DNA from: Anadara kagoshimensis | Taxonomy: Eukaryota > Mollusca > Bivalvia > Arcoida > Arcidae | Direction of reading: 5' to 3' | NCBI GenBank assembly: GCA_021292105.1 | Contig: CM037869.1 | Location: forward strand, 36,335,835-36,399,834 | Length of the DNA stretch: 64,000 nt | Position numbers and translations under genes: made by a program | Notes under the pieces: model-generated | What the model saw: the letters and a program-made list of their open reading frames with translations, nothing else | Told to the model about the DNA's origin: nothing | Database searches by the model: none | Shown: positions 1,059 to 32,151 of the stretch, piece after piece | Position numbering within the stretch: position 1 is the first letter of the stretch | Layout of the letters: the number at the start of each line of letters is the position of its first letter

Positions 1059-1164
1059 ATTCCTGGCGTCAATATAATTGGTATTCTACCTGGATATCAA
1101 CATGACTCTCTTGATAACATATATGTTGTCGGTGCATACTATGACACAAAGGGTATAACTGAAG
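1059..1164 (+). CDS. Exon 1 (first seen): M28-like domain, first metal-site strand
   Basis: Reads IPGVNIIGILPG, then VVGAYYDT, the strand that in active M28 enzymes is VGAHxD with a zinc-binding His; here it is Tyr. The acceptor is cttttcag and the donor gtaaga; exit is phase 1. The upstream 1 kb holds only repeats, so the N-terminal part of the domain lies outside the window. Confidence 0.75.
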
Positions 1165-4100
1165 GTAAGAAAACTTATGACCTTTAAAATTTATGTTCGA
1201 TTTCACTTTTCAACCGAACATAAGGCATTTATTTAAAAAAGTAGAACTTTGATAATTCGAACTTCGATATCTCGAATACCACGGATAATTCAAACCATTA
1301 CATTGTCTCGACCGGTTTTCTGTATAAACTATATAAATACAACTTCGATAACTCAAACTCAAATAACCACAATATCTCCGATAACTAGAATTGCTTTCAT
1401 TATGCCCCCGCTTAAAAAGTGGGGGGTATATAATGATAGGGGGTGTCCGTCCGTCCTTCCGTCATTCCGTTACACCTTTGGGTACCTATCTCTTATTCGC
1501 AACTCTTCCTAAACCCTTAAATGGATTTTCATGATACTTTCACACAATCTTTGTGATATAATGTAGATGTGCACCTCCTATTTAAAAATTTGATCCGATG
1601 GATTTTTTGGAGTGGCGGGTATTTTTTGTGACCTTGTGGCTCACAGTTTTTCTAGTTTTTTTCTACTCAGGCATACTATATGTATGAATGTATTGACATA
1701 CTTTTGATAATTCTTTTTTACGTGCAGTATATTTTTCGTAAAATTTCAAAATGTACAGATATTTATTAATCTTTTATATATCAGGAATGTTTAACAACGG
1801 TGCTGGTGTTGTAGCAATGTTAGAATCGGCTAGACTTCTTGTTAAAGGCGGTAGAAAACGAAACACATTGTTGTTTGTCGCTTTTGACTTGCATGCAACA
1901 GGTAAATTGTCTAAATGACTGATAAATACTACACTACTTACCGTATACAAACATACAAATCCAGTAAAAAAACCACTGTGTTAGGTCAGTTGGTAGAGTG
2001 CTCGCTACGTAAGTGACAGGTCGTGGGTTAGAACCCCGAACAAGTCTGACCTAAAACTTGAAATGGGTATTGTCTGTTCTTTCGCCAAGCATTCGGCATT
2101 ACGAAATGAAAGTCACGGTTCCTTAGAATGGGAACCTAAAATAAAACAGGTCATGGTAGGTGTGGCACGATAAAGAACCCTGTTGTATATATAATGCCAT
2201 CAGTGCAACGTACAGGCAAAATTTCTGCACCTTCGCTTATAGCTGGCGACGACTCGATATAAGTTAAATACTCTTGACTTGGATGTTAAACACCTTTACT
2301 AAACTTAATCGTGTAAAGGAAGACAGGAATCGCAGAACATTCACCTCTTTGGGGTTAAGTCATTAACCAGAAGAGCAAATGTTTGTCCAAACCATCAATT
2401 AAAAAGCCAATAATAAACTTACACTTTTATTTGACCCAATTCTTTAAAGGTTTTATTTCAGTTTTTAACACTTATTTATGTCTCTGGTATTTTGGTCCAA
2501 GCACTACTGATGAGGAACTACAGCCTAGTGCTGTAAAATTAAAACTTGTATAATAAATTATGTAACTTGACCTATATAAATAGATATATAATATTCAGAA
2601 ATGACCAAAAATTATATGCATTTCTTCAGTGATCCAAGTTTTAGATGGGGCAGTACAAAATGAATAAAATTTTGGTTAATTGTTTTATCCCTACCAACAT
2701 GCTGATAAAACATTTCCTACTTTATTTGATGCCTCTGTGCCCAGGAATGCCCTGGGTATACGAGTATTTGACGTCCCAAAGTTCCGTGTTCCTTTTACAC
2801 AATTTTGGATACACACGTGGCGGGTGTAGCTAGCTAAACAGGAGGTGCTTACCCCTCCGGAGCACTTGGACTCACTTCACTGGTGGAAGTGATTATTTGA
2901 AAGTATACAAATCATCTATCTGGATATAATTTAGTAATCTACATTTCTTAGAAAATCGGGATCAGGAGAGGTGTTGTCAAGGATCGAAACATTTTGTGAA
3001 TGTATGGCTAGAAAACTATTTGATGGAAAGTCGCAAGAAGAACAAGAATGTCGAGTTTGGCGGTACTATTATTCTGGAATCCATCTTGAATTATGACAAT
3101 ATACCAAGTTCACAAGAAGTTAATTTAAAAGGTACTTTAGGGGCATTGGTAAGTATTACACAATAAATCAATTGACGGATCGCCTCCACCGACAGTGTTC
3201 CGACAAAAACCTGGCACGCTTGAATAACACACAAAAAGAATGTAAACTCGCTCTGAATTGTGCAATTTAATAACATCGCTGACACAAGAACGTCATTAGT
3301 TGCCGTGACGCTGCTTTATTATCTTGATGGCGGCTAGCTATATATAGTGTCGGAACATATTAAGCGTGACCGGCGATACGTTAATTCTTCTTTGTTTCAA
3401 GCATTTTGATTGGTCATATTTTCTGTTACGTTTGCGTGAATGGATTTGCTCTCATTGACGCCATCTTATTATGGATGACGCACAGAGGCATTTGAATTCC
3501 TACGCTATAACGATGCTATTTTTTTTACATGCTTAAGCAATATTGTTATTTAACCTGTTAATTTCTTGTTGAAAAAAGTTCTATCAATGAATTATAAGAA
3601 ATGAAATTAATTTTTCCTTTTGTTATGGAAGTATGAAAGAATTGCGCACGTAACATATTTTGCTACGCGAATTATTGTGCAAAATGTCTAATTCTTTGAT
3701 ACTTTCATAACAATAAATTTGTTGAGGCACGTATATTACAATACTATAGGTATTAGCCTAACGATCATTTTGATATATGAAAAAAGGTCATTAGTTTAAA
3801 GGTCAAGGTCACAGATGCAAACACATCTGAAACAGTTGATTATCTGAAGAAGAGGAATACGGGCTCAGTGGTTAACACTCACCTGAGAATATGTACACAT
3901 CTCATGCGGTTGTTCAATAGTCAATTATATAAATAAAAGAAAATATCTAAGTTTTCAGCAGATATGGTCAATATACCATGATGTTTGCAAATTAAATATA
4001 TCTTGTCTTAAGTATGCTTCACCTTAAACATCTAAAAACTAACTGCAGTATTTATAAACAGCTAAAATACATGTAGTAAAACAAAACTTAAAAACTAGTA

Positions 4101-7100
4101 AATGTTAGTGTTTGTTTGCATATGTGGTCTTTAAATCTATAATCTTTATAATCATATATCAAAATGATTTTTATGTCAATACTTACAATGTTCCAATATA
4201 AAAAAATTAAGAGCTCTTGAGATATTTAACCATATAAGTATTCGTTTGCACGTGTGACCTTGATCTTTCAACCCATTACCGTTCATATATCAAAATGAAT
4301 ATCAATAAATCAATACCAACAATATTTTTTTATACATACCTATACACAACGTTAATAGTTTTTGAGATAATTAACCATTTCAGTATTTGTTTGTTTTTGC
4401 TATCTTGACCTTTGAAACCATGACCTTCATTCATAAATCAAATTAGTTTTTAAGCCAATGCCTGCAATATTTAAATAAACATGTCAGACTATACAAAAAG
4501 TGATAGCTTTTAAGATAGTTTACCGTTTCAGTATCTGTTTGCATCTGTGACCTTGGACTTTGGACCGATGACTTTCATTCAAATATCAAAATGATCGTAA
4601 TACCAATGCCTATAATATTCTAATATACATGACTATACAAAACGTTTATAGTTTTCGAGATAATTAGCAATTTTAGTATTCGTTTGTATCTGTGACCTTG
4701 ACCTTTCAACCCATGAACTCCAGTCATATATTGAAATGATCATTAGGCCAATGCCTACAATATTGTAATACACATGCCTAAACAACTTTGTGTAAAGGAT
4801 GAGAACTTCTTTATTAATCTCTTAAGTAATTAATCTAAGGAGTAATCAATTTATGAACAAGTTCGTGAAGTGCGGGACCCGGTGTTTATAATGCTATGCC
4901 TTGTACCAATGCCCACTCAGGGCGACTTTAAGGTGCTAGCTTACTGAGCCAGTACGCCGCAGACAAGCGTTCCACTCCCCAGGTAACATTATGCTGACGA
5001 CACAGGGTGAACCAATAAAGACCAACGGCAAGGAAAATTCACTTTCCCACATAGAGTCTGAGCGGGATCCAACTCACAGCGGTGAGAAACCCTGGATTTG
5101 TAGACTGACGTTTTATCCATTAAGGCACCGCAGCCTCTACTTCCAATTAAGAATTTTAGCAATAACAGATTTTCAATTATAAATTATATTTTCTTTATTT
5201 AAAAATGCAGATGTTTAAAGACTTGTACACATTAGTGGCATTAGATAACAACAGAGGAAACTTTATTTTGGTGGTTTGTAGAGACCAAGATGCAGAGTTG
5301 CAGAAGCCATTTACGCAAATATGGAATTTCTTACCTGGAATGAAGGCCAAGATTCATTCATTGCAGTTTAGTTTAGGTTTTACAAATGACCTTATCTATG
5401 AAATAATCGAAGAAAAAGTATTTGAATCTGATTTATTACCATTTTATATGAAAAATGAAAATGGAATTGGAATTACCGATACAGGTAGGGTAAAATATAG
5501 AGTCATGCTGATAAAAGTAGTATGATAGACGACATTTTCGACCCCAAAAAATCAGAATAATTAACATGGAACAGCGCCATTTATCCTTTCAAAGCATTTA
5601 TCCCCGCCTTCTTTGACGTCACAATAAAGAATACAAACGAATCTTTTACGAGAGATTGACAGCCGATGCTAATTTACTGTATTGTAAACGTTATTCTTGT
5701 CAATAAATTTATGTAAGGAAAAGGGTTGAAATGTTTTTGCATAGCTCTGAACTATGGAGAGAAATTTTGTCGTATATAAGTGCCCCTTTTTGGGCTCCAG
5801 TATTGACGCCCAATGACTTCATGATATTTAAATAAAGTAAATGAGGACTTTCATAATATAAACATATTGACAAATTATTAGATGGGTCTAATTCGGCCTT
5901 TATACTTTTTTCGGGAAAACATATTGGTTTTAAACCATATCAAATCAATTCTTTGATGAATTATTGACGTATGTTGAGTTAGCCGTGATGCTTTTGTCTT
6001 GTGTATCTTCATTTAAAAAAAAACATTAATAGATATTTATTTATGTATAATATTCCCTGAATTTTTTTTATCGAAACACTATCTCAGTAACATTAAGTTA
6101 GGACTGAAATATAATACCCCCTAGCAAACAAAAAAATATGTGTACAATTTGCGTAACGTCAACGTCAATTTGTACTACTTTACTCTAAAGGCAAAATTCC
6201 ACCAAACAGTCTACATATTATGCACTGATATATATGATGTTACCTGTCGGAAACTGCTTATATCAGGGTCTTCAACATCTTGGCCGTAATCACAGTAGAG
6301 TTAATAATTTTGATGCATCTGTGTCCAGTATTGCCCTGGGTATATTTGACATCCCATAGTTCCATACCCCTTTCACTCAATTTTGATTACACGCATGGTG
6401 GGTTTAGCTAGCTAAATAGGAGGTTCTTACCCTTTCGGAGCACGCTGCCTCACTTCCCTGGTGAAATTCCACGTATTTAACCTAACTTTTCAGTTTCAAA
6501 GTTTTTACTTTGCTTCTGGGTCGAGATTTGGACATGGATCAGTATGTTTGCTTTATATTTGAACAATTTTCTTTCCGGAATTGTTAATGTCATTTAAGGG
6601 TTGAGAAAATTCAAACAGTGAAAAAAGCAATTTCATATAATTACCATTTAAAATTGCTTTTTGATCAAATAATTTTTCGCTTTGACTAGTCTTCGTCGCA
6701 AAACTATATGGGAAACATACTTGTAAAACTTTAGTCCTTGGTTAATTGTAGAGATTTGAGTTGAGTAGTTGTGTTTTACGTCCCAGTCAAGAATATTTCA
6801 CTTATATTGAGACGTCGCCAGCTTTAGGCGAAGGTGAATTTTTTTTACCTTTGCGTTATGCTTATGGTATTATATAGCAGGGTTTTTTTATTGCTCCAAG
6901 CCTACCGTGACACGGGACGTTTATTTTTAGTTCCAATGACTTTCATTTCGTAATGCCGAGTGCTTGGCGAAAGAACAGTAATTACCCACTTTCAAGTCTT
7001 GGGTCATACCCGGCCAAGGATCGAACCAACGACCTTTTACTAATGGAGCGAGCACTCTACCAACTGGGCTACCCCAGTGGTCGGGTAATTGTAAAGAATT

Positions 7101-10100
7101 TGACGATATACGTGGCATGTCCTAAAGTCTTGTTATTCTGTGATTTTTCTTTTTTGCTCTTAGTTATGTTGGGTATTGCGAAGTACATGTGCATATTTTT
7201 CAGATACAAATATTGCCATTTCATTTCAAAGCTTTGATATTTATGGTTCATTTCAAAGCTTAGATATTGATTGTGTTTTCTAATTGAAAAATTCATGTAC
7301 TTAAAAGTAGTTTTATTTTATTTGTAATGATTCAATTTGCAAAACAATTATGACCACTGATAAATTTTCATAATGATTATGTTTAACCAGAACAATTCAG
7401 AGGAGAAATGAAAACCTGTTATAAAACTCGATGTAATGAGACAGCTTTATTGACTAATGAGAAAATATCGTTTGTTGCAAAAACGATTGGAACAGTTATC
7501 TTGACGGCTGAGGTTTTAGGAAATGGTAATACGAGTGGTTTTATAATTGCACATATGCGGAATCAAAGTTATATAAGTACAACTACTACGCCAACAGTAC
7601 CGAAATCATTAGGTAAAGTACTAATACAATGATCCTTTTATTTGAGATCGATTTTTAAAGCATTTTGTCTATTTTGGGACCTAAAGGGTATCCGGTGTCT
7701 AGAAGTACATGTAGTAACCAAACCAGGCGTTCCAGCCCACCGTCCCTTCCATTACTTTAACATAGCCTCACAGACCCCTTCCCATAAGTGTGATTGACTG
7801 ATAGATATATAATTTGTATTCTTAATGATCCGTGACATGATAAGGTCTACCTTTATAGATAGTTCAAATAAATAGTTGTGAATAATATTGTTCGCATTTG
7901 TCTTCATTCATGGCACACACACACACACACACACACACTGAATAAGATGTACTTGACTCACTCTGCTATAAAGGCAGACCCTATCATGTCACGGATGATT
8001 AAGAATGAGAAGGGCTCTGACGGGTTAATTTAAAGCAATAGGAGGGGCGGCGGGCAGGAACCCCTGGTTTGGTAACTACTTTTAGAATAGAGAGTTTTCG
8101 GTTTTTAGAGGTTAAGTTTAGCATAAACGAAAAAGAAAAGTTCGGGCTAAAGGAATCTGTCTAGTATAGGGAGTCATCCGGTTAAGAGAATTTTCACTGT
8201 ATTTAAAGCAAAACATCGGCAAGAGCAGTAAGCCCTCCAGCAAATATCTTTTCATGAGAATGAATGGGCGTTGCACTGAGACAATTTTTGCACTCTAAAA
8301 TATTTTTTCACTAAAAGATAATGGAATACGCCAGGCATCCAATATTATTTATATAATCAGGAATATATGCATGCATTTCATAAATATTTTTTCCCATCTA
8401 GGTGTTAAATCATATATATATATATACAGTCCAACCTGCCTAAAAGGTCACCTCTATATAGGAGCCACCTGCTTAAAAGGCCAGTAGAATTGTATCCCAT
8501 TATTCTTTATTTATATTATTTGAATCAAAAACAAAATACTTATCCATTTCCGAATCACAATCCAGAAGCAAAGTAAAAACTTTGGAACTGACAAGTTAGG
8601 TTAGACACGTGAACTTCCACCAGGGAAGTGAGGCCGGGTGCTCCGGAAGGGTAAGCACCTCCTGTTTAGGTAGCTACACCCGTATATGTAAAGGCCACTT
8701 TTACTGGTTCCCTTTGGTGGCCTTTATAGACTGGTGTGACTGTTTATATTGTCTACAGATCATTGTATTCATGTAAAATATCTCGCATTCTGTCTATTGC
8801 TTCAGAACCAACATGTCCCAATGCAGACTATTTTTACGATGGAAAAGCGGATATATATTACAAAAGCTATATGAAATATATTGAGTTTGTTCCATGGAGT
8901 GAAGCAAAGACTGTATGTGAAAATGAAGGTGCACAATTGTTGATCTTACACAGTAAGAAAATGTTAGAATTTGCCGTCAGAAGTGAGTACCACAACACAA
9001 TTGTTATAAGTTTTCTTCTACGTCTCGCTATCTTCCCTCAACAGTTTTCTGGATGGTTCCTTTGTTTGTTGAGAGATCGCCAATTCATGGTTTTACCGGA
9101 CCCTATAAATGCGCGTCCTATACCGTATACGCTCATTTTTGCTCTCTGGACTTGGATGCATGAAAATCATACATTAGTCATCGTAGTTTCGATTTTGTTA
9201 TCCTGCCCCTTTCTCATTTCGGGTTATTATTTATAATCTATGTTACTGTGGTTGAACTTGAATGATTATAAACACATAATAACATTGTGTTAGCCAAACA
9301 AGCCAATCTTCTGTCTTTTTGTCTTGAATGAAACACATAAATAATAGAAGACTATGAAGTGCTCAATCCTCTGGACCCTCATTTCTTTTTACCCTGCGTT
9401 CCTGGGACCCCACATATTAAACATCTACATATTCATCTACATATTACATTGTTCCGTCAAAATTTTATGATTCTGCAATGGGATAATTACTGTAAAACCA
9501 TGCAGTTTCTTGTATGGTTCATGTTGGATCAATAATGACTTAAGGTAACATCTAAGAAAATAAATTTCCCTACACACACATGAGTCTAAACTTTACTCAT
9601 TTTTGCATTCAATTCGATCTGAAAGATCCTCTTGAGTAGTTGAGTTTAGTAATGGTGTTTAACGTCCCAGTCAATAATATTTCACTTATATCGAGACGTC
9701 GCCAGCTATAGATGAAGGTGCAGAAATTTTGCATGTGCGCTGCGCTGATGGCATTATACAGCAGGGTTTATTATCGTGCCAAGCCTACCGTGACTTCGTT
9801 TATTTTAAGTTCCCATCCGGAGCACCCGGTCTCACTTCCCTGGTGAAAGTTACGTGTCTAACCTGACTTGTCAGTTCCAAAGCTTCTACTTTGCTTCTGG
9901 ATTGTGATTCGGACATGGATTAGTATGTTTGTTTTGATTATACAAGTACAGAACCCTTTTGCACATTGCCCTGAGCGCACTGGAAAGGTAAAAAAATTGC
10001 CACTTAATCTATAACTGATGATGTCTGATTTTAGGCGAAAACATTTAAAATCACTCAAACATCAATCATATATTACACATATTCCAAAAATTATTTAAAA

Positions 10101-13100
10101 GGGAAATTCTCCTATTTAACATAGTAATCCATGTCCGAATCACAATTCAGAAGCGTGACACGTGCACTTATACCAGGGAGGTGAGACCAGGTGCTCCGGA
10201 AGGGTAAGCACCTCCTGTTTAGCTACCTACACCCGCCAAGTGTGTGATCAAAATTGTGTGAAAGGAACATGGAACTATGGGACGTCAAATATATCCAGGG
10301 CAATCCTTTTAGGCCCGGATAAACCAAGGCTTACAATATCCCTGAGTCAATAATTTATTTGCAAGCAGCCTGCTTCGTTGCACAAGGCTTATTAGAGCTT
10401 CCCTCTTTTTCTAAAGAAACGCCATATAGTATTTGGGTTGGAATGAGTGATATACAACATGAAGGCGAATGGAAATGGGTAGATGGAACAAATGTTACAA
10501 GTGAATTCTGGGATACCTGTCAACCTGACAACTCTCAATTAGGCGAAGATTGTGGAATACTGCATATCCATCATCAAAAGCTCATTGATGTCGATTGTAA
10601 CTTTTTTTATAAACCTTTTATTTGCACATGCAAAGACAACGAAACATTGAGTATGAAAGTTGATTTTCAGGAAGAAGGTAAAGTTTATATTTATTGTACT
10701 TTTGTACTTCCCGATTCCCGAAGTAAGGGTAAACACGTGATATTCAAAATGGGAATAAGGCGGGATGCTCCGGAAGGGTAAGTACCTCCTGTTTAGCTAG
10801 TTACATCCGCTACGTAAGTAATCAAAATTGAGTGAAAGGAACATGGAACTTTTGGACGTCAAATATATCCAGGACAATCCTGGACACAGACACATTAAAC
10901 TTATCAACAATACTGTGATGGCGGCTATAAAACTTTTTGAGGGCCCTGATTAATTTGAAACAAACATACAATGCAGAAGATTCGAGAATTACAATATATC
11001 TAATAAAATAAAAACGGTTCCGATATGATGATTGTGTATATAGTATAGAAACAATGACATATATACAATATTTGGACAGGATTTTTAGTTTCAAACATAA
11101 TATAACAGAGCTTAGTAATAACATCATTAGAGAGTTAAGTAAAGGAGCTTAACGTCCCAGTCAAGAATATTTAACTTATATCGAGACGTCGCCAGCTTTA
11201 GGCTGAAATTGCGACGATGCGTTGTGCTGATGGCATAATACAGCAGGGTTCTAAATGGTGCCAAGCCCACCGTGACACAGGACCTCGTTTATTTTAAGTC
11301 CCCATCCGAAAGAACCGTGACTTTCATTTCGTAATGCCGAGTGCTTAGCCAAAGAACAGTCGCTACCCACTTTCAAGTCTTAGGCCAGACCCGGCCGGGG
11401 TTCGAACCCACAACCTACCACTAACAGAGCGAACACTCTACTAACTTAGCTATCGCAGTGGTTGTATTACCTTAAAAAAATTTCATTCCGATTGTCAAGG
11501 TTACTCGACGTTATTCTATTGTTACATCATGTAATGACGTTATTTTGTTTGGCATGTGTGCGTATTGCCGAAACAGTGGTTTTTTTTTTAAAAAATAACT
11601 GCCCTTTTTACATATAGGATATTTTCAATTTTCACGAAAATACAAGAAAAATAATTGTTAATTGCATGTTTATGTGATTTTTATAATATTTATGTATTTG
11701 AACAATGTTTGTTTCAGGAATAAATTTTTATTGAACCTTTATAAATCCAGCATTTTATTAATATACATTAATGTAAGCTTCTCTTAATTCTTAAATCTGT
11801 AATTGCCATTTAAGAATGTTTTGTAACTGGGTACACCATGGTAGAAAAAGAGGTACTTTACTATAAAGTGTTTGAAACATCTCTGAACCACGACCAAGCT
11901 GAAAATGCCTGTATCACTGACGGCGTACATCTTCTTTCTATATCTACGTTATATGAATACAGCTTTATCAACAAGTTAAGCTCTGGTAAATATTATTATT
12001 GGTCATTTTATTTTACCACCTGCTGTTTGCAAATCAATTGTTGACTCATTGACATTGCAAGCCTAGGCTTATCAAGTCCCTCAAAAAGTTTTATGGCCGT
12101 CATCACGATATTTGTCTCTGTGCCCTGAATATATTTGACGTCCCATTGTTTCATGTTCCTTTCACACAATTTTAATCATACAAATGGCGAGTGTAGCTAG
12201 CTTAACAGGAGGAGCTTACCCTTCCGGAGCACCCGACCTCACTTCCATGGTGGAAGTTCGGATGTCTAACCTAACTTGTCAGTTTTAAAGTTTTTACTTT
12301 GCTTCTGGATTGTGACTTGGACATGGACCAGTATGTTTGTTTTTTAGTATCTCATTGTAACCAGCTCTCGGTTATAATGTACCTTTACAGTATTTGTGTT
12401 AAAATACAAACCCATTAGTCAGACAGATAAAATTTGTAAAAGTGTCTTCTAAAATCCCCAAATACCGATTGGCATAACTTATTTTATGGACCTCGTTTAT
12501 TTCAAGTTTTCTTCCGAAAGAAAATGTGACTTTCATTTCATAATGCCGAGTGCTTGGCGAAAGAACAGTCACTACCCACTTTCAAGTCTTGGGTCATACC
12601 TAGTAGGGGTTCGAACCCACGACCTCCTTCTTACGGAGCGAGCACTCTACCAACTGAGCTACCGCAGTGGCAAAGAAGTACAAACATATACATTAAAGCG
12701 TGACTTATACTGTTAATCGATAAATATTATATTACCTAAAGATGTATTTCCACATGCCTTTTAGAACTAAGTGGCGGATTATACCATATACATTCAGACG
12801 AACGATTTTACCAATTGTTTCTGAAAACCGATTTAGAAAATGCATCGTCAGAAATATTGAATGCTGGTAAAGACCGATGTTATGTACTTGATGGTTTTAC
12901 GCTTTCTCTGGATACTAGAAACTGCTCTGATAAACTACCTTTTATATGTGGATTATATTGCAAAGAAAAAGATTTAATCAAGGCGGTACCTGATAAACCA
13001 GACTATGAACAGGGCTATTTTGGTATGTAAACAAAAAAGTGTTATATTTGTTCTTTTGTGTTTATCATTTAAGAAAACAATAGTTGAAGTATTAGTAAAC

Positions 13101-16100
13101 ATTTTTGACCTGTCCGCTTGAACTTTCATTTAAAAATATTTATCATGGACCAAGTACAACTGTGTATAGGGAACACAGGTGTTTATTCTGTATACATCAT
13201 GAGATATGCTCACCTCGTAAAGTACACCTGTGCAATGTGTATGTACAAGTATTAACTTGGATCTTATCACTACCCATGTATTGGGTGAAACATCCTATAT
13301 GAATATTCCTAATGAAATGTCAAATGGACAGGTCAATAATGTTTACCTGTATATTTCATTTAATACAAAATGTAAACATATACAATTTCCTACCTTACCG
13401 ATGGTTTAATAATGAATAGTATTATACAGTAAAATTATAGAATTATACACTCAAACCTGTCTATGATGGCCATCAAAGGGAACCAGTAAAAGAAACATTT
13501 ATGGGCAGGCGGCCTTAATAAACAGGTTCAAATAATATGAATAAAGAATAATTAAGATACAATTGTACTGGCGTTTATAAGCAGGTGGTCTTAATATAGA
13601 GGTGAGCTTTAAAACAAGTTGGACTGTATATAGAATTTTAGGTTTTGCTCATTCGAGAAATAAATTTGGTAGAAAAATATGTAAATATTTTTTATCCTTA
13701 AAATTGATTTTGAATTAAGCCAATTAAGTTTTCCCTTTTGTATTTTCCTTAAATTACTTTAAATGTCAAATATCAAGATCAGAATTCTGATATTAATATC
13801 CTTGCAAACTAGATTGAGAAGGGTATATAGGGACTACCATGCCCGTCTGTCTGTCCATCCGTCTTAGTGGTAGCTCAGTTGGTAGAGTGCTGGCTCCGTA
13901 AGTGGGAGGTCGTGGGTTCGAACCCCGGCCGGGTCTGACCCTAGACTTGAAAGTAGGTATTGACTGTTCTTTCACCAAGCACTCGGCATTTCGAAATGAA
14001 AGTCACGGTTCTTTCGGATGGGAGCTTAGAATAAACGAGGTCCCGTGTCAAGGTGGGCTTGGCTAAAGAACCCTGCTGTATAATGCCATTAGCGCAACGC
14101 ATAGGCAAAATTTCTGCACCTTCGCCTATAGCTGGCGACGTTTCGATATAAGTGAAATATTTTTGATTGGGACGTAAAACACTATTACTCAACTCTCAAC
14201 TCGTCTTAAAAAATTAAGATATTTATTTTTGTACTTTCCTTACATAAAGTTTTGAATGCATTTGTATTTATTTTTGCATGTTATAGCATGAAAAAAAATG
14301 TCATGAAATGTGTCATACCTACACCGAAAACCAATTTAAATATGAAGTGTTTAATTACCATTAAAAGCACTAGCATCAAACTTTCGGTTCAGAAGACAAC
14401 TAGTGTTTCAGAACCACTGGACATTATCTATTTTCAGAAAAATATGAAATACTTGCATCAACGGACAATGGTTTAAAACATTATAATATAGAGACGGAAG
14501 TTCGAATGTCATTTATTGGGGAAATTTCGACAGGCGAACCTGTATACAGTATGGATATTTTGTATGAAAAGAATATTTTATTCTGGCACAGTCGAGAATC
14601 GACATTTATTATGGAGACTGCCATGGAGGATTCCCCCAACTACAGTCATCGGCGATTTGTTAATACCGGTGATCACTACACGTATATAGCTGTTGATTGG
14701 TTTTATGAAAATGTTTATTGGTCGTGCATGGTGTTGCAGACAATAAGTGTTTCAAATGGAAATTATACTAAGATACTGTATATGCAAGATATAAATAAAC
14801 CTAGATTTCTTCAGTTAGATTCTTTTACAGGGTAGGTATGATATTTTAGGTACTTACTCTACTGTAGAACCTAGTTAAGTGGTCCTGTCTGAAGTTCACA
14901 TGTTACACAAAAATTTTCCTTTTTTTATTGTGATTTGAAAACGCACCGGTATATTTGTTTTTGAATACAGCAACATAAAAATAACCACAACCATTCTAAC
15001 ATTATCGAATCTAGACAACAGAAAATCGTTTCTTTTTAGTAATTAAATTATTATACGTCCACAGACAAGGAATTTAGCTTTTACCTTCTACAGTTTAGGG
15101 AATAAACGTGTTGATAAAGCTTACAAATCACTGTGTTTATTTCACTTCAATAATAATAAACTACCAGATTTTTAACCATTGAACATTTCCCTCTTTAGCA
15201 TAAATTATTTTATATAAGGAATCGTTCATTTAAGAGCAGAATGAAACTTCTTTCATGTCTGATCAATTAGAATAAAGATCCATTTTGAGTGCAAACACCC
15301 GTTTTGTGAAATCGTTAATTTGATGACCAATAAACATATAAGATTATGCTATTTCTTTGAAATTGATGTGTATTTTAAACTAGTTTTTCAGGACTAGCTG
15401 CAATTTTTTGTAGGGTTTCAGATTGCTTCCGTATGACAATAGAATGTATTTTGTTCATATCACTTGCGGGAGAGCTTAAAATAGGTTGTGGAATTAATTA
15501 AAACAATCTTGCTTACAAACGTGAGGAGTGTAGCTACCTCAACAGGAAGTGTTTACCCTTTCGGAGCACCCGGCCTCACTTCCCTGGTGGAAGTTCACGT
15601 GTGTAACCTGATTTGTCAGTTCCAAAGTTTTTACATTGCAGCTGGATTGTGATTCGGACATGGATTAGTATGATTGCTTTTGTTTATTCTCATACAATAT
15701 AACTGACAGCTTGATCCTTTATATATCTGTTATAATATTACGCTTATACAAAAACTAATTCTTAACTAATGATGTCTTACAGATTATTAATTTGGCTAGA
15801 ACCTTTGGGGGTAATATTTGGTACTATGGACGGTCAAGAGAAGATACAGGCTATAAATGGAAACTTTGATCAACTTGTTGTTGATAGCTTTTTAAAAACC
15901 ATGTTTATCAGTCATGAAAATTTCATCACAAGAGAGCGGTTACGGTCCATTGAAGATAATCTTAACCATCTCATTTACCATAACGATTTCGAATCGGTAG
16001 ACTGCCTAAACAAATTTCGTTCAAGCAATCATTTCGATGCCAAAGTTCATGGAGGAAATGTACCATTTAAGGAATACACGCATTTAATCTTTACAGATAA

Positions 16101-17211: not shown

Positions 17212-17252
<41 letters not shown>

Positions 17253-20200
17253 AAGTTGTTGTTCTGTCTTTTGCCAAACATATTTACAACAGCTTCATAA
17301 GTACGTTTAATTTTCAGAATGTTCGTATGTAAATGACAGTTGTTCGAAACTCAAATTACCATCATTTAAAGGCTCATTTAGTTGTGTTTGTCCTCTGGAT
17401 GGAGTGTTTTTAACTGCTAAAGAAGGATCGTGTGGCAAGTGTAAATAATTAGTAGAACATAAACGTTTATTACGCATTTATTTCAAGCAATGCATTTGTA
17501 TTTATTTTCTAGCAGTTTATGTGTGATTCGAGATAAAAGCGTAATAACTCCGAAAGAGTTCATTTTGATTACAAATGTTCCGGAGAAGCTAGCCAAACAG
17601 AACACCCGGCCTCACTTCCTTGGTGGAAGTTCACGTGGCTAACCTGACTTGTTAGTTCCAAAGTTTTTACATTGCGATTCGGACAAGTATTTGTATGTTT
17701 GCTTTTGATTAGTTACTTTCTAGTTTCACAATTTTTGTTTAATACACTACTGATGAGGAATTGTATTCAGAAGCGGTCGTCTAGTGTTGCAAAATCAACA
17801 CTGGTATAATATGCTATTAAGTAGTTTATAAAATTGAGTTGTCTAAAATTACAAATAATGACATCAGTTTATCGATTATATGTCTACAGATTATAAAGTA
17901 TATGTAACTTTGACCTGTTCGCTTGACCTTTCATTTAGATATTTATCACGGACTAAATACATAATTTTATGTATAGGGAGCACAGGTGTTTATCTGTATA
18001 CATTAGGAGATGTACTCACCTAATAGATTATACCTGTTCACTGTGTATGTATTAACTTGGATCTTAACACTACATATTTATTGAGTGGATCCTCCTATAT
18101 GAATATTCCTAATGAAAGATCAAACGGACAGGTCAGTGTTGTTTGTCTATATATGCATACTCAATTTCTTAATGTTTATGCTTAGATTTCTGTAATTAAA
18201 TTTTGATATGGTTTTTTTTTCAATTAAATACTATACTCCAACTCGATTTCCTTATTTTCTTTGACTAAAATTAAGTATAGTATTTCCAGCAGGGTAATGT
18301 GCCCAGGTGCTCAAGTTAAAATTAATTCTTCTTTAACTTGTATTCATTATAGATATCAATATATGTTTAAAAGACAATGGAAAGTGCTCGCAGCAGTGTA
18401 CTGAGATGGATTATTATCCGTATGTCAACTGTTCTTGTTATGAAGGATTTCAGTTGCTGTTGGATGAGAAGACGTGTATCAAGGAACATGGTAAGTCAAA
18501 CGATTGGAATCGAGAATATTAGAAACAAAGTGTTAGGAAGATTGCGAAGAAGCGTTTGATTACCAAACAAATCACAATTCCAAAAGCAAAGAAAAAAATA
18601 AAACACGTAAAATTTCATTGGAGTAGTGAGACCGCATTTTATATTTCTATTGTCAGCTAACCAATGATAGAATCTTCAATTAAAACAAATGTTGTTAATG
18701 TGTTTTGCACTTAAATTTTCGGTTGGGAACAGTAATCAAAGCATAGTTTTAGTAAAATTATTTTTCTACAGGGGATTGAATGTTTTGAGCATGACCCGTT
18801 CCTGTTTATTATCAGGCTTCAGTTTCACAATTATTACATAACTTCCTCCTTTTTTCCTTAACTTAAATCTATCAATTTTTATTGATCTTTTATCGTACTT
18901 ATATAAACAGTTTAAGCAAACTTATAATATAGGTGTTTTAAGCTCTTCAAAATGACACCTTAATATCAAATCTTAAAACCTAATAAAATTATTCAGATTT
19001 TAAATTTGTCAGATTTAAGTTAAGGAGAATCTTAGCTAAGAAATGATTGTAAAACCGGGTCGAGTAGTCTATTATTTTCCTTTTTATGTTTTTTGTTCCT
19101 TATTATTTCCGAGTATAGAAAATCAGTTACTTCTATATTTTATTATTTGTATTATAACTAGAGGCTCAGACACTGATTTTGTTCAGCGATAAAGTAGATT
19201 TGGAACTTTATCTTCCACAAGGGAAATTTGAATATCGCAAGAAAATTAGTATAGAGGATTTTGAAACTTATGACACCGCTGGAATTACCTTTGACCCACT
19301 CGATTTCCATATTTACTGGGTACAAGATAAAGCGTTTAGTATAAGAAGAGCTTACATCAATGGAACAGGTATATTTGATATAAATAGATGGATAATACAA
19401 AAAATACAAACGCCTTCATTTCGTTTCTAAACTTGCAACAATTACAGCATTAGAAGTTCAACATTTTTTAAAATATAACATATGGCATTTTTTTTTATTA
19501 ATTTTTTTTTTGTAATTCTCTTTTTTCATTTCATTCAATATGCATTGACAACACTTTAACATTATACACAAAACATACAATGTATAATGAATGTTCTAAA
19601 TAAGAGAGAGCTTTTACCTTAAAATAGAACATTTACAATATATACTCTTGTAGGTTTATGTTATCATACACATAATATACTGGTACATAAATCACTTTTT
19701 AAATTTATTGTTAAAAAAACCCCGACAATGATCTACAAACTATGTGTGATCACTTTCTTTTGCAGCAATACATTTTCTGCATGTTATAGACATGTAATTT
19801 GAATGTAAATAAATAATTTTGTACAGTCAAACCTGGCTACAAAGGCCACCCAAGGGAACCAGTAAAAGTGACCTTTATGGGCAGGTAGCCTTTACATACA
19901 GGTTCAAATAATATGAACAGAACAATTGGGATATAATTCTACTGGCCTTTATAAGCAGGTGACCCTTACATGGAAGTGGCCTATAAGGCAGGTTGGACTG
20001 TAATTTAATTAAAACTGGTATATTATGTAATTATTATATTTGGAATCACTGTTTCTGACAGTGTGTTATGTTTTATTCCAATAGCAAATCAAATACACTT
20101 CAATAATTATGTTTGATATTGTTCACTAACTTGTGCTTAGTTTTAACTGGAAATCTGTATGCGCTTCTGCGACTGTCATGAAGTACATCTGAAGAAAGGA

Positions 20201-23200
20201 AAACGTTGGCAATGTAAGGATTTAACATGGCGATTATGAAGATATTAACAACGGAACTGATTTCCGACATGTAACACCATACGTGCAATCCATCATTTTG
20301 CTTTGCTTTTCAATATGCTTACCCTTGCGGACCACCCTTGGTGAAATTTCACGTGTCTAACCTAGCGTGTCAGTTCCAAAGTTTTTACTGGATTGTAATT
20401 CGGACATGGATTAGTATGTTTGTTTTTGATTTCTTTCCCATAGCGCCTATGTTGTATTCTGTGCAGAAATATACCCTAATAGCGGGTGCGAATACAGATT
20501 TCATGTTAAAAGTGTAGATACAAATCAATGAAAAATAATTTGTGTATGGAAATAACGCATTACTCTGTCACAAACACAGAGATTTCGACAGTAATATCTA
20601 AAACTAATATGTGATGAAAATAACTGTCAGAAAAATTAAATTAAATACATCGAGTAAATTGAACCGTAACTGGGTAGACAATGTTATAAGATAATGCATA
20701 CATTTTTGCCTAGGAAAAGAAGAATGCTACGCAGGTTCGTCAAAAGAATTATGGTCGTTAACGCTTGATGTGTTTCAAAGACGTCTTATGTTTTCCGTTC
20801 CCGAAAATTCCTCAATCGAATCGGTTGATACTAACGGAAAACTTTACCAGATAGACCACCAACTATCCAATGCTTATTTTCCAAGTTCATTTGTTTTAGA
20901 TAACTTTAATGGGTAAGAACTTTAATACATTAAGGATGTGTCTAACTAAACATGAGATGCTTACCCTTCCGGAGCACCCGACCTTGTTTCCCTTGTAGAA
21001 GTACACTTGTTTAGCCTGGCTTGTCAGTTCCAGAGTTTTTACTTGGCTTCTGGATTGTGAATCCGACATGGATAAGTATGTTTGTTTTTGACTGAAACTG
21101 TACCATATTATTTTACAATTTCACCGAAACTTTTTAGTAAAATTATTCACAAAATGTGAACTGTATTCAAATGGATTTCTTAAATACGAACGGTTAATAT
21201 AGGAAATAATTTGAAACTTCTCGAAAACATACAAAGTTTTATCACTAGAGTCCATATGATTCTGTAAATAGCAGGAATTCGACAACGGTCAAGAAAACAT
21301 TAAAATTAAACAAAAAACTGAAAGAAAGTGTTATTAAAATTCTACTTTTAGATTTATCTACTATCATCAACAAAATCGATTTAAGCTTACCGACACTGAG
21401 ATAATCAGACTTGATATTGAAACAAGAGAAGTAGAAGTAATTATAGAAAAGATAATAGGTTCAGCAGCGCCAAGGTCATTTGATGTTGATCATAAAGAGG
21501 GGATGATATTTTTCATAGGCGGAACGTTTAAGGAACAAATTGAAAAACAGCAAATCCATGGCACAGAAGGAAAAGTTATCGTACCGAAAACGCAAATGAT
21601 TCAATATACACATATATACCTACATGGTAAGATATGTTTTACAAATATGTTCTAAACACAAATTTTCAATAATCTCTATCTCTCTAGGCATTATTTCTGC
21701 TAGACACGTGGACTTCCACCAGAGAAGTGAGTCCTGGTGCTCCGTAAGAGTAAGCACCTGCTGTTTTGAAGAATATTGTTGACATTGGTGCAATGATGAT
21801 TTTTTAGATTAAGGCCATGTATTTAAAGGTTGGAGTTAACTCCATTTTTAAAATATTTCAATACATTATAATTATTTAATTAATATTATTTTAGATTTGT
21901 CATCCTTTCTAAAGTGAAACAATACACGTTAACTGACCTAAAATATCAAAGAAAGACAGGAATTCAAATCTGACCTGTAATACACTTATCGTTTTTTTTT
22001 TTTTTTTTTTTTGGGGGGGGGGGTAATTTAGACATGGATTAGTATGTTTGTGATTTTGGTAAAATATATTGCTGTGCTTTGGGTTTTATTTAAACATCTT
22101 GAAAAAAACAACGTTTTGGTTTCATAATTTTCGTCCAAGCACTACTGACGAAGAATTGTTTTCCGAAACGAGCGTCTAGTGCTTTAAAATTAAGACTGGT
22201 ATAATATGTAATTGCACACTGCCTCCTTCATTCACTATTTTGATCATGGAAAACGAAACGAGAATTAATAATGAAAGCAACAAAACATCTAAAAATTAAA
22301 ATCTTGTTTAGATGATGAATTATACACCATTGGAAGACAAGGGGAGTTTGGTAGATATAACATAAAAGAAGATACTGGTGAACTCTTCAATACGATACAT
22401 CATAAAATAATTTCTATAGCTGGAGGACAGTATCACTCCAAATCAAGTAAGAACATTTAAGATACGCTTATTACTTATTTAACATTTAACATGCAACATT
22501 TTTCTTTTGCTCAATTAACCACTGCAGAAGCTTAGTTGGTAGAGTGTTCGCTCCGTAATTGGAAGGTCGTGGGTTGTGGGTTCGAACCCCAACCGGGTCT
22601 GTCCTAAGACTTGAAAGTAGAAAGTGGCTGTTGTTTAGCCAAGCCTTCGGCATTACAAAATGAAAGTCATGGTTCTTTTGGATGTGAACTTATAATAAAC
22701 GAGGTCCCGTTTCACGGTAGGCTTGGCTGATGTATAATGCCATTAGCGAAAACGCACAAGCAAAATTTCTGCACCATAGCCTATAGCGACGTCTCGATAA
22801 AAGTGGAATATTCTTGACTGGAACGTTTAACACCATTATTCAACTCTTGGCTTAATTAGGTTGAATATGCTTGTTCTTTTTCAGTTTGTTTTCAATCCTA
22901 TTTATATTTGTCAAAGTAGTACTGGTGAGGAATTCTATGTCGACACAGTCGTCTAGTGCTGTAAAATTAACACTGTTACAAACTGTGACTCATTTATTGT
23001 CATAGTGACTGTTAAAACGGGTCTACCCAAATGTCAAGAACCTATCAGTTCATAATTATATTATTAAATGTAACTTCTTCTTTGAGTACAGTAATAAAAA
23101 CTGTCGTTTCTTTTTTCTTTCATTCGTAATCAGGTTTAATTCCACATGTGGCGGTGCACTTAGCTTATCAGGACGTGGTTACCTTTCTGGAGAATAAAGG

Positions 23201-26200
23201 TCCACGTCGTTCGTAGATCATGTTTTGAATTAAATTTGACAGTTTTTCAAGATTTAGTTTGCTCTCTGGAATTGTGATTTATATTAAGAGGTATATCTGG
23301 TTTTGAATATTACTAAATAAGGATAGTAAGTCTTGGTATAAATGAAGATTTGTCTTGTTACCAACTTTAACAGCTTGTTCATCATTTACATTACGTAAAT
23401 CAGTCAGCTTGATGAAGTGGATTAACAACTGTTAACTTACGCCATAAGCTATTTGACGTCGCATAGTTTTAGGTTCCTTTCACTCAATTTTGATGACAAA
23501 CGTGGCGGGTGTAGCTAGCTTAACAGGCGGTGCTTACCCTTCCTAAGCACCCAGTCTCACTTCCCTGGTGAAAGTTAACTTGTTCAACCTAACTTGTCAG
23601 TTTCAAAGATTTTACTTTGCTTCTGGATTGTGACATTGATTGGTATGTTTGTTTTTGATAATCATCATTTTGTGTGCTAAGATCAGCAATTGTATCTGGC
23701 ATGTTATCATATAGATATCTCAAATATGTATGTCAATGTCAAGTCATTCGTTTGGTTAAATGGGATTCGTATCAGATGCAATGACTTATAAAGTCTAAGT
23801 ACTTTCACAGTATTTTGAAACATGAGATGAAGAATGTCTTCTCATGAACAAATGAAACAATATGGTACTGTATCAAATTATAACTACACTTTAATATTTG
23901 TGTGTTTTTTAATGACGGATCTCTGTTCTCGCTTTGTTGGTCATAAGGACGACAACGTGCGGCTATCGTCTTAGTGATTGATATTCGTATGGTTGCATGA
24001 CTTAGGGACATATCGGGTTGGTTGTTATGGTATGGGCGGGAATACTAGTACCTCAGCGTAAAAACATGATGGTTACCCATGGCAATCTACAGCGATAATA
24101 TATGAAAAAAGTTCTTTGGACTAGCTGTCACACTTTTATCTATCAAATTGCATCTAACGTTGCAACATGACAACACCTGCCGATCAATTATGGACGACTG
24201 GACAGAATGTTAAGAATCGTGTTAATAAACCATATGCAGCCACACAAATCACTTATTCAGAGTAAAATAATATACATCTAAGGACAACAGCTTTATGTGG
24301 TCAATGTTAAGGACATTAAAAGCAACGGCTTAGGACAAATCCGGTTTCACACACAACTCGATCAGAACATTGCGCATATACTCTTGTTTTTACGCTATTC
24401 AAACAAACGCCCTCTGTGACTGGACAACTAACATTCGAAAATTCAGAAAGATAAAAAACAGAAACTAAACACTCTACTCATCATCAAAGACACATGTGAA
24501 ATTGTGACGATCAAAATTAAACTTTTTTTTCTCTAGTGAATATTTTCGTAAGATATAACGTGTTCTATTTATAAGCCAAAAAAGGATGGCTAATTATGAC
24601 TGAATGTTAATATTTGTTGACCAAATTTTCATCATAATCATGTTAAATGACAGTTATTATAGAATAACTTATAATATTTATTTTTCTCGTTTCTTTGTTT
24701 GTAAACTAAAATTAAGAAAGTTGCAACGACACAAATTTTTAATTTTAAACTCAAACAGCGCTTTTCTAACTAGGTCGCAAATATAGTTTTCTATCTTTCA
24801 CCATCATAGCGTTTAAGTGATTTAAAAAAATCAAATTTTATTCTTATGACGCACAGAGGTCAGTTTTTTTTATAACAAAAATATAATAATAATAAATGTT
24901 TGCAAAACACTATATTAATGCTATACCGTAAAAAACCGTCTTGTACGCGAGGATTTACGGTTAATGTTTTGATATTATTTATTCAAAGTATCTTCACCTC
25001 AGCTGTTTAATATTATATTTTTATCTGTTTCAGATAAAAATAGAACAAATGTCGAAACATGCGTTGGAATATCAAAGTGTCTTGATGTAAATGGGTTGGA
25101 TTTGTTTAACACCTGAACAAATATGTGATGGTGTTGACCAATGTTATGACAGTTATGATGAAATGTATTGCGAATATGAGGAACATCGACATAAATACAC
25201 ATATATTCACCTTTCTTGTCTAAAACAATTCCCACCACATGGATATGTTTACGATAGACATGATTTGTTATTCGTTAATTGGAAAACTCATCTTTTTTCA
25301 AGATACATCAACTTTGAAGCATTTTTGCTGATACGATGCAGTGTTGAATATGAAATATCAAATCTGATAGAATCATCGAAACAAACATTTAAGCTTCCAT
25401 CATTTAACGTAAATCACAGATTTAGGCAGATTATCAAATCAAACGTATTACGTGGGCGCCATCACTATATCAGAAAACTTGTGTTATCAGGACAAGGTCT
25501 TTCTCAAACATGGTCTCGAAAAACTTTCGAAGATTTAAAAAATCTCCGTATTCTTGAATTATTGGATATTACTCTCCAAGTTTTAAGAAATGGAATTTTA
25601 ATCAACCTTTCACAGCTGAATACTCTTCAGTTACGCTTGAAGTCATTGGTACAAATAGAATCAGAAGCATTTATTGGAATACATCAATGCCAGACGCTGA
25701 AAATATCTGATACCAAAATAAGTCGCTTCCATCCAAAAACATTCAATAATCTAAAGAAATTAATAAGCTTAGACATATCAAATAATAAACTTGTTTTGCT
25801 AGAAAAAGAAATGTTTACATACATGACGTCACTTCAAACTTTAGATACTCGCGAGAACGATATATACATAGTAGAACGATTATTTGATGCAAATATCAAT
25901 CTTAAATTGATATATAGTGATACTTTTTCGTTATGTTGTGTAACACCAAAACATATGCCAGTTGATGGTTGTAAAGCGCCACGGTTTGATGTTTCTAGTT
26001 GTGAACATTTAATAGAAAACAACGATCTCCGTATATTTCTGTGGGTAATTGGATTACTAGCCGTTGTTGGAAATATATGCGTATTAATTTATAGAAAGAC
26101 AAATGAAGGATTGTTTAACGATACATTTTCGGTTTTAGTTGGAAATCTAACTGTAGCGGATGGTTTAATTGGTGTATATCTAATATCGATAGGAATTGCT

Positions 26201-29200
26201 GATGCAATGTTTCGGGGAGAATATATATGGAGAGAATACAAATGGCGAAATAGCACACTTTGTTCACTTCTTGGAATCTTATCCGTTTTGTCATCTGAAG
26301 TATCCGTACTATCAATATCTTTAGTGACAGTTGCACGATATTTTGCAGTGAGATTTCCATTTAAAGAACATAAAATATCAAGGAGAAATGCCGTGACTGG
26401 ATGTATTTTAATCTGGATTTTTTCTCTTTCTATGGGTTTATTCCCATATTTTGCGTTTGAAAATTATTACTCCTCATCTGGTGTATGTGTATCACTTCCT
26501 TTAAGAAAAGAGCCAACAGCAACAGCAGGGTGGACTTATTCATTTTCACTCTTTGTTGTTTTTAATTTTCTAACGTTTCTCTTCATCGCACTTGCACAGG
26601 GCCCAATCGTATTGGAAGTAAAGAAAATATCATCTAGAGTTCAGAGAACAGGAGATTTAAAACACATGAAAGTAGCAAAGAGATTGTCTTTAGTTATAGC
26701 AACAGACTGTTTATGTTGGATTCCAATTGGAACAATGGGTACGTAAAAATCTATATACATACATAGTGTGTATGTACAACCCTCCGTACCAAGTCGAGTC
26801 CTGTTTTAGTAGTCGGATCACTACGACGAGTAGTGATACGGCTACTAATAAAAAGGACGAGAAATGATTGTTTTGTCTAAATTTTCAACTAGGTTTTTTT
26901 AAAATAATAAAAACAACTCTAAATGTGAAAACAATTATATTGTTACCACAGAAAAACACTGAACTATGTTTTTACATCTGTTCTGTAGTAATGACATCAT
27001 TATTAATTTGACATTGACGTCACAATGAGAAATCCTACTAAAAGTGCACGCGAACTTTACCGCCAATGTTGTATTTATCATCACACTGGTGATACAAGAT
27101 TATGTATCAAACGTAAGCGATAAAACTTGTATTTCGTCAAATCAGATAGAAAAAACTAGTGTAATGTTCAATAAATCATTTGCCTAAGTGTGGCGTGCGT
27201 CGAAAGTTGCATTATAGATACAAATAGATACGTTATTAATTGCGATTTATCTTGGTATGTGCAAATTTTCAGTAACAGAAAAATTGCATTAGGTTTTAGC
27301 AACACATTATTCAGTCCAAATGGCTTTTATTATATTTATTTTAAATATGATGATAAATTAAAACATTATTCCACCTTACTAACATCTTTTTTACTTATCG
27401 AAGTGGAAAAAATAATGTAAAGATTTATACCTTTATCCCAGTAAAAAGGCATGAAAGTATTATTTTTAGCGCTGTAGAATCAGTCACAATAATTTTACAC
27501 AATTCTTAAAAAGAAAAAGAACCTTTTCAACTTGTCCCTTGTCAAAGGTTACGTCCCATTGAACCATGTAACTGGACTATTATTTCACCTACAATGGATA
27601 CTGTTTACTCAGCGTTACCGACGCAACACTTTATTAATGAAGTGGACGAAAAATTTTAAGCGTCTTTCGGAAAAAAATTTGAATAAAAACTGATTGTTTG
27701 TACATATTTCATCCAGAGTTTGTAATGTTAATTGTGGCATTATTTGTATTTATCTAACATTAGACTAGTTTTTCTATCTGATTTGACGAAATACATGTTT
27801 TATCGAACACGCATGATACAGAATCTTGTGTGGTGATACAACATTGGCGGTAAAGTTCACGTCGCATTTCTCATTGTGACGACATTTAGGAATCTCCGAT
27901 TTGTCAAATGTAAATAATGACGTCATTACTACAAAACATATTTCATAACATAGTTCTGTTGTAAATGAATTTTTCACATAAAGTATTGTTTTTTATCATT
28001 CTTTTTCCCTCTACCGGTCTAAGGCGATACAGAATTTTAAAGTTTTATATCATTTTAGACCATAATATCAAAATTATTACTCTATTAAAGTTTAAATTGT
28101 GGATAAATTAACTGATTATATGATACTGTATAAAATGTTCAAATATTTTATTTAATAACCTAATTGGAAATGTTAGATAAAAATATCAGGTCTCGTCCTT
28201 TTTTCGTAACCGTATGACAACTTGTCGCGCAAGCGCAATTCGTAGTGATACGGCTACGAAAAAAGGACTCGAACTGATACTGAGGGTTGTACATACACGC
28301 TTTGCATATAATATGTATGTATCAAAGTACTACTGTTGAGGAATTGTATTTCGAAATAGCCGTTTATTGCTGTAGCATTAACACTGGTATTCTATGCATT
28401 AATCGTCGTTTAATCACTTTATATTCTATTTAGTTTAGTATTATTATAGTTCTGATGACACTATTTTATCTTTTACATGTTAGACACGAAATGCTTACAG
28501 CTGATGCAGCTTTTAACAATAACTCACTCACTCACTCACGCTCCTTAAAGATCTAGCTTGTTTTATATGCACAAATATATTTTGGATCAATGACCATATA
28601 AAAGTAATATTTGACCAAAGAACAATATTCACATAACTGGATAAGTATTTGCATAATGGTTTTTAACCGTCCATAATTAAGAGAATTGTGAAGTTATGTT
28701 TTCCGTTAAAACTTGATGTGAATTTTCATTTTTCTTTTTTCACTTTTCTGTATATTGGTAATAAATCTCATTTCATTTCATTGACAGGTGTAATGGCAAT
28801 GTTTGGTTACGATATGCCGAGGACAATATATGCATGGACCGTGGTGTTTGTTTTGCCAATCAATTCTGCAATCAATCCGTTTTTGTACACATTTATCGAT
28901 ACACAGGTATATAGATCTTGAAATTATCTTTAAGCATACAGTTGACGCATCGCCGGTCACGCCTACAATGTTCCGACAAAGGCCGCCATCACGGTGCCAA
29001 AGCAGCGTCACGGCAACTAATGACGTACCAGTGTCAGTTACGTCATTTAACGACACAATTGAGCCGAGTTTTTATTCTTATTGCGTATAATTCAAGCATG
29101 CCAGACCTTTGTCGGTACATTGATGGCGTGGTCAGCGATACGTCAATTAGTGTTTAAAAAGGGATGGTGTCAGTTCCTTGCTTCTATATGTGTTGATATA

Positions 29201-31875: not shown

Positions 31876-32049
31876 AACATATACCGCACGCTTTGTAACG
31901 ACACACGTGTATATTGTTTACTACATTCCCCTATACATGAGTATACTTCTTTTGATATGATCCGAAATTACATGAATATGTCCCAAACCAATGGAAACAA
32001 CATATCAAAAATTATTGTTGATATAAATAAATATGTTATTTCTTTTTAG

Positions 32050-32151
32050 CCTCTTCAAAATTATTCTGGAAAATGATGGGAACCTTAGCAGTTGCCATTT
32101 CAATTGTAATGATAATTGGAATTTTGTTACTGCTAATAAAAGACTTTGAGG
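32050..32151 (+). CDS. Lectin gene exon 1 (first seen): transmembrane segment
   Basis: Encodes SSKLFWKMM, then a hydrophobic run (TLAVAISIVMIIGILLLLI) ending KDFEG. Acceptor tctttttag, donor gtaaga at 32152, phase 1. The two adjacent ATGs (32073, 32076) are possible starts. Confidence 0.72.

Follow-up and report, generated by a model that had tools for sequence, protein, structure and literature searches.

The window (the whole stretch of 64,000 nucleotides analysed here, C13:36335835-36399834) belongs to a genome of 1.115 Gb in 36 contigs. Its plus strand harbours nineteen exons between 1059 and 28906, with matching phases and with borders adjusted against paralogs, which together are predicted to encode one membrane receptor. 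The paralogs are C13a (C13:36183049-36211552, 150 kb upstream), C9b (C9:7253766-7280651) and two copies on contig C1 (C1a and C1b). The exons are as follows.

E01, 1059..1164, + strand: M28 fold, with Tyr at the metal His position (GAYYDT); AG/GT borders, phase 0 to 1; Pfam M28
E02, 1785..1901, + strand: M28 fold (FNNGAG, FDLHATG); 85-100% identity across four paralogs
E03, 2952..3148, + strand: M28 fold; paralog comparison
E04, 5211..5484, + strand: M28 fold; paralog comparison
E05, 7391..7612, + strand: C-terminal part of the M28 region and linker; phase 1 to 1; acceptor corrected against paralogs
E06, 8806..8982, + strand: C-type lectin domain 1, first half; Pfam Lectin_C
E07, 10417..10677, + strand: C-type lectin domain 1, second half (QPD motif); Pfam Lectin_C
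E08, 11815..11985, + strand: C-type lectin-like domain 2, first half; Lectin_C E 2e-5 (E08 and E09 together)
E09, 12765..13022, + strand: C-type lectin-like domain 2, second half, degenerate
E10, 14438..14831, + strand: YWTD-type propeller 1, first half; LDLR and LRP6 structures at E ~1e-13 to 1e-14
E11, 15783..16282, + strand: propeller 1, second half; paralog comparison
E12, 17318..17434, + strand: EGF-like module 1, GC donor; paralog donor comparison
E13, 18353..18490, + strand: EGF-like module 2; FXa_inhibition/cEGF under the Pfam cut-off; LRP alignments
E14, 19162..19368, + strand: propeller 2; paralogs and LRP structure matches
E15, 20714..20912, + strand: propeller 2; paralogs and LRP structure matches
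E16, 21352..21626, + strand: propeller 2; paralogs and LRP structure matches
E17, 22312..22446, + strand: propeller 2; paralog comparison
E18, 25034..26738, + strand: probable LDLa module (LDLa-like, frameshifted near 25,090), LRRs and TM1-TM6; LRR_8, 7tm_1, RXFP1
E19, 28788..28906, + strand: TM7 with NPxxY (NPFLY); identity 93% to C9b and 100% to C13a

The open frames on the plus strand agree with the exons of an earlier sequence-only reading, which had counted twenty exons of matching phase on one strand; nineteen of these stood, and the last, running to 30196, was dropped. All borders are of the AG...GT type except for one GC donor after 17434 (E12), where C13a, C9b and C1a have GT in a comparison by eye. 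Most introns of the gene are in phase 1. An extra exon between E04 and E05 was rejected, as the paralogs place the E05 acceptor further upstream. The identity of E10 across four paralogs is 73-95%, and E01 is conserved in C13a and C9b.

Position 1059 is not the start of the gene: two exons were found before it. A signal-peptide-like exon of 49 bases, with an ATG at its start, lies 1.7 kb ahead of the window (-1720..-1672 in window numbering), and an exon for the M28 N-terminus lies at -424..-225; both have counterparts in the C9 copy, where the stretches that match are 50% and 64% identical. The former is the sole conserved signal-peptide-like exon seen, and it is located 5' of all domain exons. 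Spliced together, these two exons and E01-E17 give 1,332 amino acids, stop-free to 22446, and the intact form reaches about 1,940 residues once E18 and E19 are added. At the other end, the terminal exon that had been proposed at 29930-30196 was rejected: against C13a, a 92-100% identical copy, it shows ten nonsynonymous and no synonymous changes as well as a stop, and no homolog of it was found in the C9 copy. A tail in the next frame, at 28914-29087, was also discarded, being repeat-like and matching other places in antisense. In the window copy, as in C13a and C9b, E19 runs to the border CAG/GTATA, which may mark either a donor or the beginning of a very short tail.

Other features were observed further downstream in the window. 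Five short conserved coding-like pieces at 32037-43208 (+), namely a hydrophobic span at 32037, two further pieces (33615 and 34716) and two lectin-like ones (37632 and 43188; no Pfam match for either), are also colinear downstream of the C9 paralog, which suggests a putative type II membrane lectin gene duplicated together with the receptor. A further C-type lectin exon was found at 54362-54670 (+; Pfam Lectin_C E 3e-6). The stretch 40001-42000 is very AT-rich (GC 0.21; the remaining 2-kb bins range from 0.28 to 0.38) and has a strong G-over-C skew. A short open frame at 56128-56307 (+), for which no Pfam match was obtained, contains a DGWTS-like motif reminiscent of hAT/ZBED transposases.

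The Pfam search identified Peptidase_M28 (E 2e-12), Lectin_C twice (3e-18 and 2e-5), LRR_8 in three stretches (3e-14) and 7tm_1 (5e-21). E06 and E07 together are closest to the LY75 structure (E 7e-27) and the mannose receptor family. The QPD motif is present in the first lectin domain in all five copies read (window, C13a, C9b, C1a and C1b), with a variable WND position, and no QPD was seen in the second lectin domain of the window copy; QPD and WND are motifs of the sugar-binding Ca2+ site of C-type lectins. Pfam gave no Ldl_recept_b match for the propellers, and the EGF modules stayed under its cut-off; the propeller/EGF part matches the solved structures of LRP4 (best E 1e-45), LRP6, LRP2 and LDLR, with the LDLR match (E 2e-13) falling inside the first propeller. 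The single transmembrane span of LDLR and LRP proteins is absent, and the propellers are followed by the LRR-7TM part.

The LRRs lie directly N-terminal of the 7TM core in the same exon, with an open frame over the LRR-7TM part at 25091-26743. The closest solved structure for this part is relaxin receptor 1 (RXFP1; E 8.6e-70), aligned over the length of the 7TM. NCBIfam returned a sub-cut-off LRR match for the 7TM exon and nothing else. The NPxxY and CWxP motifs are retained; the DRY-type motif has the form VARY in the window, C13a and C9b copies. The start of E18 is a probable LDLa module, as judged by the pattern CDGxxxCxDxxDExxC in C13a and C9b; no Ldl_recept_a match was obtained from Pfam, even in these two copies, where the LDLa-like module is open. 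Of the modules named in the earlier reading, the M28-like, lectin, propeller, EGF, LRR and 7TM identities were thus recovered, and the LDLa module is present as a pattern without a Pfam match.

The M28 fold was matched by Pfam in four of the four sequences scanned, and its nearest solved relative is YwaD. The M28 head was aligned to YwaD and to S. griseus aminopeptidase; in the alignments to both, the first metal His is replaced by Tyr and the bridging Asp by Asn. The first Glu of the Glu-Glu pair is His in two alignments against YwaD, and the second is Ala in one alignment and Glu after an 8-residue gap in the other. The FNN and FDLH of E02 are identical in all four paralog copies (C13a, C1a, C1b and C9b), and the Tyr of E01 is also found in both paralog copies read. 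Because of the His to Tyr and Asp to Asn changes at metal-ligand positions, the M28 head is probably inactive, a pseudopeptidase that has lost at least two metal ligands. The term M28-like therefore holds for the fold, as the name of a probably inactive domain. A Pfam M28 search of the genome yielded 19 matches, in short exons, and added little.

Copies of the whole gene are present elsewhere in the genome. With tblastn of the exon peptides, E01-E19 were found in order in C13a (92-100% identity) and in C9b (55-93% per exon), and the two C1 copies keep the same order for the exons located in the stretches compared (E02-E17 and E02-E11). Splice borders and phases agree between the window copy and its paralogs. 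Nei-Gojobori dN/dS between the window copy and C9b was highest in E05 (0.48), the first propeller (0.38) and the two lectin domains (0.32 and 0.31), intermediate in the second propeller (0.28), M28 (0.27) and LRR (0.20), and lowest in 7TM (0.16), EGF (0.14) and LDLa (0.12). All ten domains are thus constrained, the first four named the least. Judged by these ratios, purifying selection is acting on the receptor domains.

The exon 18 frameshift that had been noted earlier was located near 25,090, as an isolated lesion inside the LDLa-like module, and the C13a and C9 copies are open there. The window, C13a and C9b copies each have at least one frameshift, at different places, and may be pseudogenes or owe these lesions to assembly errors. 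Among the matches listed, 41 7TM clusters (that of the window included) reach at least 50% identity; in 14 of them, other than these three copies, the frame is uninterrupted across the full query of 550 residues. Paralogs with an open 7TM exon lie, for example, at C9:5823621-5847300 and C1:34105391-34147315. Unrelated GPCR genes, too, come in equal-scoring pairs, with 0.4-1.2 Mb between partners that share a contig (for instance C1:11964203 and C1:12873477); they suggest haplotypes retained in the assembly, and the receptor copy number may therefore be inflated. As the counts come from the best matches listed, it may equally be too low.

It is a considerable possibility, if somewhat short of even, that the window copy itself is a pseudogene or an allelic haplotype copy, so that the family is real and this locus makes no receptor. 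The frameshift inside the LDLa-like module, the GC donor of E12, the 92-100% identical copy 150 kb away and the equal-scoring GPCR pairs would all fit such a copy. However, the window copy and C13a differ with dN/dS of 0.07-0.44 in nine domains (the tenth, LDLa, is unchanged), a single frameshift was found in about 5.8 kb of coding sequence, and that frameshift could be a sequencing error.

The association of the modules was followed across the genome with the best 150 of 219 M28 candidates, 87 7TM matches (the best 79 of 545 candidates) and 97 propeller matches. Among these matches we found at least 46 M28 clusters, 41 of which have a same-strand 7TM within 90 kb downstream; the order M28, propeller, 7TM on one strand occurs in 40 of the 46. 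These 40 loci are distributed over 15 contigs, with 15.4-51.2 kb from M28 to 7TM, and the first lectin domain lies between M28 and propeller in every one of them. One further M28 cluster leads solely to a distant 7TM of 39% identity. Seen from the other end, M28 lies upstream of 40 of the 41 7TM clusters with at least 50% identity among the matches listed; the remaining one (66% identity) lacks an M28 match on that side.

For five of the 46 M28 clusters, the 90 kb that follow downstream contain no 7TM among the matches listed (C3:69710459, C3:46017288, C17:32832872, C11:16735865 and C11:17320748). They look like truncated or broken copies, or their 7TM falls outside the matches listed. A lectin exon lies downstream in all of them except C17:32832872, and a propeller as well at C11:17320748. 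At two loci on another contig (C7:19611014-19626855 and C7:23353829-23369613) the M28 exons E02-E04 stand twice in tandem before one propeller and 7TM.

A second M28 query detected 11 distant M28 clusters, ten of them new and the other already among the 46; a 7TM lies downstream of eight of the 11. These eight correspond to seven distinct 7TM loci, as two share one, with 34-43% 7TM identity, and a propeller lies between M28 and 7TM at six of the seven. The matches listed include 34 7TM clusters with 31-43% identity, seven of which are preceded by M28; the other 27, where no M28 was detected, are presumably ordinary GRL101-like receptors. The M28-7TM linkage thus extends to at least 47 loci, and its presence at 7TMs of 34-43% identity indicates that it is older than the family expansion. 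As a test of co-inheritance, the rank correlation between M28 and 7TM identity was not significant (rho 0.16, p 0.36; 36 loci), and those between M28 and propeller (rho 0.54) and between propeller and 7TM (rho 0.46) were significant.

The joins in dispute are 7612/8806, 13022/14438 and 22446/25034. Twelve of the 18 introns between E01 and E19, these three included, were compared with the C9 copy, and no further conserved exon was found among the best matches; intron matches beyond the exon edges were weak or repeat-like. By match coordinates, the corresponding joins of C9b (E05-E06, E09-E10 and E17-E18) measure 533, 1,310 and 634 bp. Donors and acceptors are kept at the first two joins in four copies and at the third in two, counting copies in which both sides are readable. 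The proposal that the M28-like, CTLD, YWTD and EGF modules form one ectodomain on one receptor is supported by the recurring order, the 40-locus linkage and the single 5' signal-peptide-like exon. On this evidence the exons very probably belong to a single gene, with a membrane receptor of about 1,940 residues as its product and with many relatives in a large, old and still-changing family. The predicted order is signal peptide, inactive M28, CTLD, degenerate CTLD-like domain, LRP-type propeller, two EGF modules, second propeller, LDLa-like module, LRR and 7TM.

That neighbouring genes, one for a secreted M28-lectin or M28-lectin-LRP-like protein and one for an LDLa-LRR-7TM receptor, were co-duplicated as a block and fused by an annotation artefact is highly improbable: such duplication would also keep the order, the prevalence of phase-1 introns makes a phase match at a single join weak evidence, and the introns at the three joins contain one, four and five copies of AATAAA, which resembles a poly(A) signal, but only one signal-peptide-like exon was seen, at the 5' end, the joins hold no conserved coding sequence beyond exon edges and repeats, their splice sites are kept in the readable copies with C9b joins as short as 533 and 634 bp, and the linkage persists at the distant 7TM loci.

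For a single receptor of this build, the outer pseudopeptidase, lectin and propeller heads would act as binding sites for glycans, proteins or lipoproteins from outside. The LRR and LDLa-like parts, which form the coupling region in relaxin receptors, would relay the binding event to the seven-helix core, and this class A core would activate a G protein; coupling of a core with the VARY motif is predicted from anatomy. A pattern-recognition or endocytic function, as suggested in the earlier reading, is plausible. The expansion, the local clusters, the broken copies and the finding that E05, the lectin domains and the first propeller are the least constrained parts fit a recognition receptor, for which immunity is the most likely role and chemosensation the main alternative. 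We tentatively propose that this old class of giant mosaic GPCRs, with dozens of loci, may represent a G-protein-linked pattern-recognition repertoire, an invertebrate innate immunity that would signal directly via heterotrimeric G proteins.

A chemosensory or hormone receptor in place of an immune one appears unlikely, though far from negligible. The core is relaxin-receptor-like, and according to PMC6267866 the olfactory organs of starfish express a GRL101-like receptor. Nevertheless, the presence of several lectin and LRP heads, in a family that is large and includes broken copies, is reminiscent of recognition repertoires, and PMC12297450 places related CTLD receptors in a region associated with schistosome resistance. 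It is improbable that the protein is mainly an endocytic receptor for LRP-like uptake, with the 7TM as membrane anchor and not as signalling unit. Its EGF-propeller blocks are of LRP type, and the three copies read have VARY as their DRY-type motif; however, the 7TM is strongly constrained (dN/dS 0.16 against C9b), aligns over its length with the signalling relaxin receptor 1, and has kept NPxxY and CWxP.

Similar to RXFP1/2 (type C LGR), the receptor has an LRR-7TM part, for which RXFP1 is the best solved match. RXFP1/2 have the order LDLa-LRR-7TM, with the LDLa module as N-terminus, and are not known to carry lectin, propeller or M28. EGF and YWTD propeller blocks are shared with LRP4, LRP6, LRP2 and LDLR, which are single-span membrane proteins and not GPCRs. 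An inactive M28 fold also serves as receptor head in transferrin receptor 1, whose match to the M28 head was non-significant (E 0.03); it is a single-span protein not known to carry lectin, propeller, LRR or 7TM. Lymnaea GRL101 has repeated LDLa modules and, as far as we know, no M28, lectin or propeller. It shares LDL class A, LRR and a class A 7TM with the present receptor (P46023; PMC12297450, available text).

The nearest published relative in plan, going by the part of PMC12297450 available, is the group of CTLD-bearing GRL101-like receptors of Biomphalaria sudanica SudRes2, a cluster associated with schistosome resistance. These GPCRs combine CTLD, LDL class A, LRR and 7TM in one protein and form a clustered multigene family, as here, and some SudRes2 genes are present in one of two haplotypes and not in both. 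The available text of that paper does not mention an M28 fold or an LRP-type propeller/EGF block for them, and the word peptidase is absent from its main text. The terms 7tm, GPCR, peptidase, LDL, LRR and seven transmembrane do not occur in the main text of a survey of bivalve C-type lectins (PMC10140915). An inactive M28 with tandem CTLD and two LRP propellers on a class A GPCR was not found in the open-access literature searched. The earlier reading knew no described receptor with this order; a part of it, CTLD-LDLa-LRR-7TM, has been reported from Biomphalaria (PMC12297450).

M28, lectin and LRP propellers on a relaxin-receptor-type core look like a new receptor design, which would extend the ectodomains of class A GPCRs to an inactive M28, tandem CTLD and two LRP propellers, in an expanded, evolving family and not as a single oddity. 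Together with the GRL101-like genes of schistosome resistance in snails, this family turns the role of GPCRs as pattern-recognition receptors into a testable question.
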